The position numbers were made by a program, and so were the translations under genes. From NCBI RefSeq assembly GCF_001182745.1, contig NZ_LN868939.1, positions 1,054,001-1,118,000 on the forward strand: a stretch of DNA of 64,000 bases. The letters are read 5' to 3'. The notes under the pieces are model-generated. The model was not told the DNA's origin. It did not search any database and worked only from the letters and a program-made list of their open reading frames with translations. The stretch comes from Nocardia farcinica (lineage in GTDB: Bacteria > Actinomycetota > Actinomycetes > Mycobacteriales > Mycobacteriaceae). Shown one piece after another: positions 51,860 to 54,336 of the stretch. Within the stretch, counting starts at the first letter, position 1. Every line of letters begins with the position of its first letter.

Positions 51860-52503
51860 CGATCATGGCGACACCCCACGAACCCAAGCAGGACCGCAGC
51901 CGCGCCACCCGGCAGCGGCTGCTCGAGGCGACCATCGACTGCCTGGCCGAGATGGGCTGGGCCGCCGCCACGGTCGCCGTGGTCGCCGAACGGGCCGGGG
52001 TGTCGCGCGGCGCGGCCCAGCACCACTTCCCGACCAGGGAAGATCTCATCACGGCCGCGCTCGAGTACATGTTCGACACCAGGAACGAGCAGGCCAGGCG
52101 CGAAGCCGAGGCCATGTCCGAGCAGCTCGACGGCATCGCCCGCACCGAAGCCGTGGTCGAGGGCCTGGTCGAGTCCTACACCAGCCCGCTGTTCAAGGCC
52201 GCCCTCCAGGTGTGGACCCACGCCGCCGCCGACCCGGTGCTCCGCGAACGCATCGTCCCCCTGGAAGCCAAATTCGGCCGCGCCTCCCACCGCCGCGCCG
52301 TCGAAGCCCTCGGCGTCGACGACTCCGACCCCGTCGCCCACCACCTCGTCCAAGCCACCCTCGACCTGGCCCGCGGACTCGGCCTCGCGGACGTCCTCAC
52401 CGACGACTCCGCCCGGCGCAAGCAGATCATCCACCAGTGGGCCGTCACCCTGCACTCGGCACTGCACACGGGTGTGGTGTCCGTGGCCGCGGAACCGGCG
52501 TAA
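51856..52503 (+). CDS. TetR-family regulator of the carboxylase operon
   Basis: Protein of 215 residues. The N-terminal HTH (ATRQRLLEATIDCLAEMGWA, then AERAGVSRGAAQHHFPTRED) is typical. It is the last gene of the operon and overlaps echA7 by four bases, so it is probably an autoregulator that senses a CoA-ester of the pathway. ATG 51856 is used; a second Met at 51865 is possible. The likely operator is the palindrome at 43325-43340. Confidence 0.88.
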   Translation: MTIMATPHEPKQDRSRATRQRLLEATIDCLAEMGWAAATVAVVAERAGVSRGAAQHHFPTREDLITAALEYMFDTRNEQARREAEAMSEQLDGIARTEAVVEGLVESYTSPLFKAALQVWTHAAADPVLRERIVPLEAKFGRASHRRAVEALGVDDSDPVAHHLVQATLDLARGLGLADVLTDDSARRKQIIHQWAVTLHSALHTGVVSVAAEPA

Positions 52504-52571: not shown

Positions 52572-52599
52572 TCTTATCGTTGTCGCGGCAGAGTTAAGG
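52572..52599. promoter_or_regulatory. HipB operator O1
   Basis: First of four related sites, TTATCGTTG-N6-CAGAGTTAAGG. The right half is the most degraded. It lies 213 bp before the hipB-like ATG. Confidence 0.6.
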
Positions 52600-52631
52600 C
52601 GCTGTCCTCGGTGAGATCTGGGAAGTCCGCC

Positions 52632-52659
52632 ACTTATCGTTGTGATGGCAATGTTAAAC
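52632..52659. promoter_or_regulatory. HipB operator O2
   Basis: Second site, CTTATCGTTG-N6-CAATGTTAAAC, starting exactly 60 bp after O1. Confidence 0.68.
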
Positions 52660-52691
52660 CGATTCGATTGCTTCGGTTCTCGGGGAAACCG

Positions 52692-52719
52692 GTTTATCGT
52701 TGTATTGGCAACGATAAAC
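52692..52719. promoter_or_regulatory. HipB operator O3
   Basis: Best site: GTTTATCGTTG and CAACGATAAAC are a perfect 11-bp inverted repeat with a six-base spacer. It starts exactly 60 bp after O2. Confidence 0.78.
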
Positions 52720-52751
52720 CTCGGGTTGCTGGTGGCGGGATCTGCACCGCT

Positions 52752-52779
52752 GCTTATCGTCAGCATGCCGCTGATAGGA
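52752..52779. promoter_or_regulatory. HipB operator O4
   Basis: Fourth site, CTTATCGTCAG-N5-CGCTGATAGG, exactly 60 bp after O3. Its right half runs into the ribosome site AGGAG of the hipB-like gene, so binding there should directly block expression. Confidence 0.65.
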
Positions 52780-52784
52780 GTGGG

Positions 52785-53102
52785 ATGTCGAGACCTCAGC
52801 CACGTCGCCGAGCGCGGGCCCGGCGAGGACCGCTGCTGGAGTTCGGCAGCTTCCTCGTCGATCGCCGCATCGCGCTCGGACTGACCCAGCTCGACGTCGC
52901 CGAGCTCGCCGACGTCGGATTGTCCTCGGTCCGGGCACTCGAAGGCGGACACGATTCCCCGACGCTGGCCGTGACGCTACGCGTCCTCGACGCGCTCGGT
53001 CTGACACTGGTCAGCCTCACCGGAACCGCAGCTGATGCCATCACCGGCAGGGCCGCCAGGGTCCGCCCGGCACAGGAGGTCGACGATGAGCAACTGGCCT
53101 GA
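52785..53102 (+). CDS. HipB-like antitoxin/XRE repressor
   Basis: Protein of 105 residues. A basic N-terminus (RPQPRRRARARRG) is followed by an XRE helix-turn-helix (GLTQLDVAELADVGLSSVRA, then LEGGHDSP) and a short acidic tail. The size and position just before a HipA kinase identify it as the HipB-type antitoxin and operon repressor. The start is ATG 52785, with AGGAG four bases away and inside operator O4. It overlaps hipA by 17 bases. Confidence 0.85.
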   Translation: MSRPQPRRRARARRGPLLEFGSFLVDRRIALGLTQLDVAELADVGLSSVRALEGGHDSPTLAVTLRVLDALGLTLVSLTGTAADAITGRAARVRPAQEVDDEQLA

Positions 53103-54336
53103 GCCCGGACGCCTCCGCGACGTCGAGTCTGCCGATGTGTACAAGTGCGGTCGCCTGGCGGGAACCCTTCGCAGGGACGGTGACGACGTGGTCTTCACCT
53201 ACCTCGAGGAGTATCGAGCCGACCCCGAGACACCGCCGATCGCGTTCACCCTGCCCAAGCATTCCGAGGCCGTCCGAACGACCGGCGGTTCGGTCCCACC
53301 GTTCTTCGCCGGCCTGCTCCCCGAGGGAGCTCGCTTGGTCGCGATCACGGCGCTCACCAGAACGAGCGAGGACGACCACCTCAGCCTGCTTCTCGCGGTC
53401 GGTGCGGACACCGTCGGCGACGTCCAGGTGCTCCCCACCGGGCTGTCTCTCACCGAGCCGCCGCCACTGTTCGGCGAAGATCCCGCCACCGCGGACTTCG
53501 CCGAGGTGTTTGCCCGGGCCACCGCGATCACCGGCGATGAGTTCGACCGCACCGCACTGCCGGGGATTCAGGTGAAGGTGTCCGCCCGGATGATCTCCAC
53601 TCCCGTGCGAACCGGGCATGGGGCAGCCATCCTGAAACTGAATCCACCGGAGTTCCCCCGCCTGGTGGAGAACGAGAACTTCTTTCTCGACATGGCCGCG
53701 GAGTGTGGAATCCGGGTCCCACCGCATCAACTCGCGATCGACCGGCTTGGGCGAGCCGGACTGTTCGTCGAACGCTTCGACCGAGTGGTGGAGGGAGACG
53801 GGATACGGCGCCTCGCGCAAGAGGATGCCTGCCAGGTACTCGGCAGGTATCCGGCCGCGAAGTACCGGATATCGTTGCAGGAAGCGATCAAGGGACTCGG
53901 GCAGGCGGTGGAGGCCGGGGAAGGATCGCGCCGGGCCGCCATTCTCACCATGCTCGAGATCGCGGCGTTCAGTTACCTCATCGGCAACGGCGATTTACAC
54001 GGCAAGAACCTCTCCATCCTTCGGGCGCCGAGCGGGATCTGGGAGGTCACCCCCGCCTACGACCTGCTCACCACGCAGCCGTACCTGTCCTGGAAAGACC
54101 CGATGGCGCTGGCACTGTACGGCCGGAATGCCAGGCTCGGGCACCGATGGTGGATGGAGGCCGCCGAGCGTCTCGGTGTTCCCCGGCGCGCGCTGGCCCG
54201 CAGCCTGGCCCGCATCAGTGAGGCGGCCCAACCGTGGATCGGGAGGCTGGGCGAGATCGGGTTCGACGAAGCCTGGACGCGACGACTCGCGGAGCTGATC
54301 GAGCAGCGGCGGCAGGAGTTGTCCGCCCCCGAGTGA
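53086..54336 (+). CDS. HipA-like serine/threonine kinase toxin
   Basis: Protein of 416 residues with the N-terminal HipA subdomain (YKCGRLAGTLRRDGDDVVFT; PPFFAGLLPEGARL) and the kinase core. The Gly-x-Gln-x-Lys region is PGIQVKVSARM, near the site where HipA autophosphorylates. ATP-binding Lys is in ILKLNP. The catalytic loop GDLHGKN has Asp303 and Asn308, and the metal Asp326 is in PAYDLL. All key residues are present, so it should be active; HipA kinases phosphorylate aminoacyl-tRNA synthetases or other targets to cause growth arrest. AGGAGG precedes the ATG. Confidence 0.88.
   Translation: MSNWPEPGRLRDVESADVYKCGRLAGTLRRDGDDVVFTYLEEYRADPETPPIAFTLPKHSEAVRTTGGSVPPFFAGLLPEGARLVAITALTRTSEDDHLSLLLAVGADTVGDVQVLPTGLSLTEPPPLFGEDPATADFAEVFARATAITGDEFDRTALPGIQVKVSARMISTPVRTGHGAAILKLNPPEFPRLVENENFFLDMAAECGIRVPPHQLAIDRLGRAGLFVERFDRVVEGDGIRRLAQEDACQVLGRYPAAKYRISLQEAIKGLGQAVEAGEGSRRAAILTMLEIAAFSYLIGNGDLHGKNLSILRAPSGIWEVTPAYDLLTTQPYLSWKDPMALALYGRNARLGHRWWMEAAERLGVPRRALARSLARISEAAQPWIGRLGEIGFDEAWTRRLAELIEQRRQELSAPE

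Follow-up and report, generated by a model that had tools for sequence, protein, structure and literature searches.

A 60-bp step between candidate HipB operators, conserved upstream of hipBA in Nocardia farcinica and its relatives

The hipBA module in the window, by which we mean the whole 64,000-nucleotide stretch of Nocardia farcinica DNA analyzed here (contig NZ_LN868939.1), is preceded by an array of four 24-bp palindromic sites that start at 52574, 52634, 52694 and 52754, at steps of exactly 60 bp. The same step recurs in related genomes across different operator sequences and follows a single clade of the HipA tree, and the main step classes of hipBA loci at large fall on a ladder of about 11 bp. 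The reading that we favor, and to which we give a probability of roughly 0.7, is that HipB binds the four palindromes as operators to autoregulate the hipBA operon, and that neighboring units are held in a fixed rotational register, so that the distance between sites would be selected and the intervening DNA would be free to change. Under this reading, which is drawn from sequence comparison, changes by whole helical turns would be tolerated and others mostly would not, and the rung of the ladder that an array occupies would track the HipA/HipB lineage, the window belonging to the 60-bp clade.

The heptamer TTATCGT stands on the plus strand at each of the four starts, each time forming the left half of a palindrome of 24 bp. 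A sequence-only reading of this DNA had reported the four positions and the exact step, both of which we confirm, and had put the palindrome at about 28 bp, which is too long. Counted on both strands of the whole window the heptamer occurs 5 times against 0.79 expected, with at least 5 occurrences in 0 of 100 shuffles; the fifth match corresponds to site 3, whose right arm it forms. At sites 1 to 4, respectively, 8, 8, 9 and 8 of the 12 palindrome pairs match, and the register is identical in all four. Site 1, the outermost (52574..52597, plus strand; TTATCGTTGTCGCGGCAGAGTTAA), has 3 mismatches against the perfect palindrome and scores 20.1 on the class-A matrix, which was built from orthologs; site 2 (52634..52657, plus strand; TTATCGTTGTGATGGCAATGTTAA) has 2 and scores 35.6; and site 3 (52694..52717, plus strand; TTATCGTTGTATTGGCAACGATAA) has none and scores 33.0, its perfect 12-nt arms reaching 52691-52720 around a center of 6 nt, which is the arrangement that had been singled out earlier as the best site. 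Site 4 (52754..52777, plus strand), with 8 of 12 pairs about the same center and more than 3 mismatches, scores 17.1. Because the scores set 20.1 and 17.1 against 35.6 and 33.0, both end sites are weak and the innermost is the weakest, not the outermost as had been proposed. The inner site had also been said to cover the ribosome-binding site of hipB; it does overlap the likely site, an AGGAG read from the sequence at 52776..52780 (plus strand), but as it ends at 52777 it shares only two bases with it. The three spacers between the operators (52598..52633, 52658..52693 and 52718..52753), each of 36 bp, are without similarity to one another: their pairwise likeness (11, 11 and 9 of 36 positions) equals that of shuffles (p 0.34, 0.47 and 0.68), as the sequence-only reading had recognized.

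Across the 6.46-Mb genome, sites 1 to 3 are the sole matches with at most 3 mismatches to the perfect palindrome, site 4 being too degenerate for this search to find, and a shorter half-motif matches sites 1 to 3 and one more place, C2:1663257. We reject a wide regulon for the HipB of the window, the genome holding no further site with at most 3 mismatches and one lone half-motif. When the window's own locus was scanned blind for repeated pairs, an intragenic repeat with a step of 92 ranked first and the 60-bp pair second, so the call of this array rests on the class-A matrix, which was trained on the class-A loci themselves, for motif and not for spacing. A TetR-family regulator gene (PF00440; positions 51865-52503 of the window) ends 70 bp ahead of operator 1.

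By its predicted products the gene pair that follows the array is a type II toxin-antitoxin hipBA module, as had been recognized. The first gene, hipB (52785..53102, plus strand), encodes a predicted helix-turn-helix antitoxin and repressor of 105 aa (PF13560/PF01381) that scores 71.1 bits against the Y4mF/HipB model TIGR03070, slightly below the cut-off of 71.65. The second, hipA (53086..54336, plus strand), encodes a predicted HipA-family Ser/Thr kinase toxin of 416 aa, a single chain that carries PF13657 (Couple_hipA, residues 17-115) and PF07804 (kinase, residues 157-382), both above cut-off. The two genes overlap by 17 nt, with a small HTH antitoxin gene directly upstream of the toxin gene as in type II hipBA. 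The HipA of the window shares 27% identity with that of E. coli, and the alignment shows K184, D303, N308 and D326, presumably the catalytic kinase residues, to be common to both; among PDB sequences, the window's protein matches Legionella HipT best (2e-21, residues 155-412). At the position of the autophosphorylated Ser beside the Gly-rich loop, which we take to be S150 in E. coli HipA, the window's protein has Ala, with a Thr one residue before. This Ser was not treated as obligatory, because HipG kinases, in the passages of PMC8262856 that describe them, lack a conserved Ser/Thr at that position.

The comparison with relatives carries most of the argument for a protected distance. The genus sample comprised 150 genomes, including the window's own, with a HipA match in 67. 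In 15 orthologs (L002-L016) the site recurs two or three times upstream of hipB at steps of 60-62 bp, with a last step of 71-72 bp in eight of them; the site in L015 is a diverged one of the TATGC type, and the ortholog scan also gave one weak extra match each in L013 (9.7) and L012 (6.0). In the more distant loci L018-L030, whose HipA is 45-48% identical, the operator is unrelated in sequence (ATCGGCAGAATATTGCCGAT-like) and the step is once more about 60 bp; other genera of the family have mostly TATGC-type operators. Class matrices that impose no spacing were run on 77 loci in three operator classes, A (TATCGTTG; 19 loci), B (TATGCnTG; 36 loci) and C (ATCGGCAG; 22 loci), with L017 (partial HipA, no array seen) put in no class and L179 (240 bases) unscanned. 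At least two sites were found in 74 of these loci, the window included, and none in L016, L031 and L144; for L016 the search region had been mis-set (partial HipA match), and the ortholog scan gives 61/61. Class C loci, for example L018-L030, have TTGCCG-like -35 letters inside the operator that precedes the last one.

Across the three classes the 74 loci provide 143 adjacent spacings, 122 at 59-62 bp, 20 at 71-73 bp and one at 256 bp, which is an extra distant match in L061. Freely varying spacing among relatives, which the sequence-only reading had named as fatal to its proposal, was not found: 142 of the 143 steps lie at 59-62 or 71-73 bp. Spacers of equal length from different loci have median identities of 0.25, 0.27 and 0.28 against 0.25 when shuffled, and the 68 adjacent spacer pairs within loci have an identity of 0.278 against 0.260. 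Because the step was kept, or altered by one DNA turn, while operator sequence and spacers changed, the distance itself appears to be protected by evolution, and the earlier suggestion of selection on spacing, as opposed to recent duplication, is strongly supported by the constant steps and chance-identity spacers of the relatives. We also considered, and rejected, the idea that every 60-bp step conceals two of 30 bp, with a further operator halfway, classes A, B and C having little or no conserved spacer sequence.

Blind pair scans of 80 regions upstream of hip genes gave z of at least 4 in 55, and 53 of these 55 have steps of 59-62, 71-73 or 120-124 bp. Control segments, 116 from elsewhere in the window and 55 from downstream of hipA, gave seven pairs at z of at least 4 (steps of 20, 38, 48, 66 and 99, and of 25 and 111, respectively), none of them at 59-62, 71-73 or 120-124 bp. 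The HipA tree has 126 rows. Those whose smallest step is at least 58 bp number 70, and every one of them belongs to a single starred clade (99) of 71 rows, whose remaining member, L064, has 50 bp, one turn less; departures from about 60 bp inside this long-step clade are of 50 or 71-73 bp. The long, phased array, which had been thought unusual, is rather the rule within its HipA clade. This is a quick tree with long branches flagged, and its rows were kept from 146 HipA open stretches by requiring z of at least 3.2 or a class matrix, with low-z rows (z 2.1-3.3; L070, L078, L079, L086, L182, L183 and L185) kept by choice. No usable open stretch was available for seven loci (L017, L050, L052, L063, L092, L132 and L134), and most loci fetched as upstream pieces only are absent from the tree. 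Outside it, at z 3.2-3.6, L167 (129), L191 (53/25/33) and L192 (51) give no support to the ladder, and further low-z calls (2.1-2.8) include L072 at 111, L076 at 73, L106 at 48, L108 at 60 and L171 at 31.

For a held-out test the prediction was written first and 31 new loci were then scanned, L228 being omitted as a repeat of L185. The prediction was borne out in 13 of the 14 long-clade loci, three of the 13 at z below 3 (L217, L218 and L220, at 0.8, 1.9 and 2.9). Twelve have steps of 60-62 bp, L219 with 72 as well and L225 with one more site, 38 bp ahead of its 60/60 array, and L244 has 72 plus a far match; in L245 no array was seen, and it apparently has a single site. The other 17 loci gave ten arrays at z of at least 3, all at 26-27, 38 or 49 bp, among them Sinorhizobium fredii pNGR234a (L246; 49/49), Tistrella mobilis (L247; 49) and Methylobacterium (27/27). 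The remaining seven had no call at z of at least 3, and L239, expected to be short, gave 61 at z 2.2, a step that, if real, runs counter to the prediction. The 49-bp steps of S. fredii pNGR234a and T. mobilis represent an intermediate rung.

The wider sample was drawn from a PF07804 search of the phylum (246 genomes, 45 with a match), together with E. coli-type loci and further upstream pieces. The blind scan covered 193 loci in total, 113 of them at z of at least 4, with those outside classes A-C resolved into arrays, and 32 loci showed no array at z of at least 2. The hipBA operators of E. coli K-12 have steps of 28/39/28, and each of the 23 E. coli-type loci shows 28-bp steps. One MAG, titled Candidatus Nanosynbacter (L115), has a HipA 100% identical to that of E. 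coli K-12 and the same operator array; its HipA is probably contamination, and the locus was excluded. Outside the 60-bp clade, hipBA loci have mostly steps of 26-28, 37-40 or 49 bp, and alternating arrays such as 29/40/29 also occur. Together with 60 and 71 bp, the main step classes thus make up a ladder whose rungs are about 11 bp apart, a period near the in vivo twist of DNA. Off this ladder are L096 and L097 (42/31/42), L100 (41/31/42), L094 (42/41), L102 and L172 (31), L068 and L070 (26/34/26), L098 (40/46/40), L119 (28/30/28) and L112 (53/40). The TATACC-type operators of L096, L097 and L100 show a one-turn difference within the array, in a phase unlike that of other lineages.

When the steps were thinned on the tree to 74, 55, 46 or 32 clusters, the best period was 10.95-11.2 bp (R 0.78-0.80) with a phase near half a turn, and a period of 10.5 bp fitted the same steps nearly as well (R 0.70-0.75). 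Jitter and uniform nulls reached the ladder in 0.0000 of 3000 each, and are generous because the thinned loci are still related. The five main peaks lie on an 11.2-bp ladder with a residual of 0.17 bp, matched by 0.00125 of 4000 random draws with the period free, a null that is too favorable because the peaks were chosen, with neither the 31/42 clade nor the odd gaps that alternating arrays contain among them. We put forward tentatively, at a little under even odds, the more general proposal that the spacing of HipB operators follows a torsional ladder with a period of about 11 bp (rungs near 27, 38, 49, 60 and 71), set by a fixed relative rotation of neighboring HipBA units, with each HipA lineage on one rung and moving mainly by whole turns, and with the long rungs (60, 71) acting as natural repression micro-loops. 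If this ladder is true, genomes would record the in vivo twist of DNA, because lineages would move between rungs mainly by whole turns.

In the mechanism that we propose for the window, HipB dimers, with or without HipA, would occupy each operator, and HipB-HipA units on adjacent operators would bind cooperatively with their rotational register fixed. The distance between sites would be under selection, and the DNA between them would not, because neighboring units must meet in register; whole-turn shifts of about 11 bp would be tolerated and other shifts mostly not, with the rung (about 27, 38, 49, 60 or 71 bp) following the HipA/HipB lineage. What points to a register requirement is that length is conserved, sequence is free and the exceptions are mostly of one whole turn. 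Contact may be made by HipA-HipA touch or by a short DNA loop, and the fully assembled array would be the fully repressed state. HipA-HipA dimers across operators were reportedly proposed for E. coli by Schumacher in 2015. Direct contact is plausible at 28-bp steps, whereas a short loop, or bending of the array, would be likelier at 60-71 bp, and at 60 bp direct touch between neighboring complexes may be impossible. The sections of PMC3376134 on the E. coli system describe repression by HipB through cooperative binding to four operators, and a 70 degree bend that HipA-HipB2-HipA imposes on the operator.

Spacer sequence is conserved in one exceptional case, a CRP-like site in one subclade. This palindrome, TGTGA-N6-TCACA, for which we assume GlxR as a label (CRP/GlxR-like), occurs in L009, L012, L013 and, weakly, L006, with 0, 2, 1 and 4 mismatches, respectively. 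In L009, L012 and L013 it is offset by 0-0.5 bp from the midpoint of operators 60-61 bp apart, and no third operator was called at the CRP-like midpoint in these three loci or in L006. The best CRP-like matches in 13 other class-A loci have 3-6 mismatches, that of L002 (4) lying at most 1 bp from the midpoint. As it is confined to one subclade, the midpoint site counts as one event; it hints at a bend that would close the loop between operators.

Several other explanations of the spacing were weighed against a fixed register. Equal and exact steps within the window are what would be expected if a 60-bp unit had recently been duplicated in tandem, with the spacing as a side effect, and it is the absence of spacer similarity that leads us to reject this as vanishingly improbable: the window's spacers resemble shuffles, the 68 adjacent pairs are hardly above them, and unrelated operator sequences show the same step. 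Promoter geometry, with one site over the -35 and one over the ribosome site, could fix the spacing in place of repressor contact, and class C lends it some substance, since 14 of 21 loci have a TANNNT 21-22 bp ahead of their last operator and the preceding operator is, on our reading, at the expected -35 place; class C operators may cover both the -35 and the ribosome site. However, O1-O2, the step farther upstream, is just as fixed (60-62), the last site of L006, L009, L012 and L013 is 76-88 bp before the start codon with the step still at 60-61, and whole-turn changes are left unexplained, so we consider this account unlikely.

Descent combined with slow indel turnover, with no register requirement, would also leave the long-step loci as a single HipA clade, which is what the tree shows. 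Related loci are indeed not independent events, and the 60-bp step may have arisen once. Nevertheless, spacer identity is at chance, yet length keeps to within a few bp from one operator class to the next, and the in-clade departures are of 50 or 71-73 bp, which makes descent alone quite improbable. Finally, the sites might belong to a regulator other than HipB, given that HipB binding here is a prediction and that the upstream neighbor is a TetR-type regulator gene. Comparable arrays precede hipB in many genomes, however, the operator sequence differs by HipA clade, and the near-perfect motif is found in the window's genome only at hipBA, and we regard a different regulator as very improbable.

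Evenly spaced hip operators are already known from published work on E. coli and on Legionella HipBST. Like the window, E. coli K-12 hipBA has four palindromic HipB operators before hipB at regular steps; unlike it, the operators are 18-bp TATCC-N8-GGATA sites at 28/39/28 (steps of about 28 bp being typical of the E. coli type), as opposed to 24-bp, TTATCGTTG-type sites at 60/60/60. For Legionella pneumophila HipBST, the relevant sections of PMC10653801 describe three operators at even intervals, the gap being 53 bp in nearly all species; adding the 18 nt of one site gives, by arithmetic, 71 bp center to center, a rung of the same ladder. Binding of the Legionella HipB to its operators was demonstrated there by gel shift, from which the authors infer that intermediate occupancy is allowed, in contrast to the cooperativity of E. 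coli (PMC10653801). The system differs from that of the window in being tripartite, with N-subdomain 1 as a separate protein, HipS, where the N-domain of the window's HipA is fused to the kinase, and its operators are said, in the same sections, to differ from those of hipBA (PMC10653801). The main text of that paper contains no word beginning 'helical' or 'spacing'. Loops formed by the lac repressor resemble hip arrays in their dependence on spacing, the loop fits in PMC1762422 giving in vivo helical repeats of 11.08 and 11.60 bp in two data sets; they differ in that they involve LacR on engineered pairs of operators, where the hip arrays are natural, have several sites and belong to an antitoxin. 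Among the papers listed in searches of openly licensed literature, we found no report of the 60-bp clade, of its independence from operator sequence or of the ladder.

The interaction of HipBA complexes on neighboring operators is central to the switching of hipBA between repressed and persistent states. Natural arrays found across the family, in which steps vary mostly by whole turns and operator sequences change freely, separate the geometry of contact from the recognition of sequence, and as direct contact predicts a fixed distance and looping predicts an 11-bp periodicity, the question becomes a testable one. The step pattern also represents a simple rule by which hip operators can be located in genomes.
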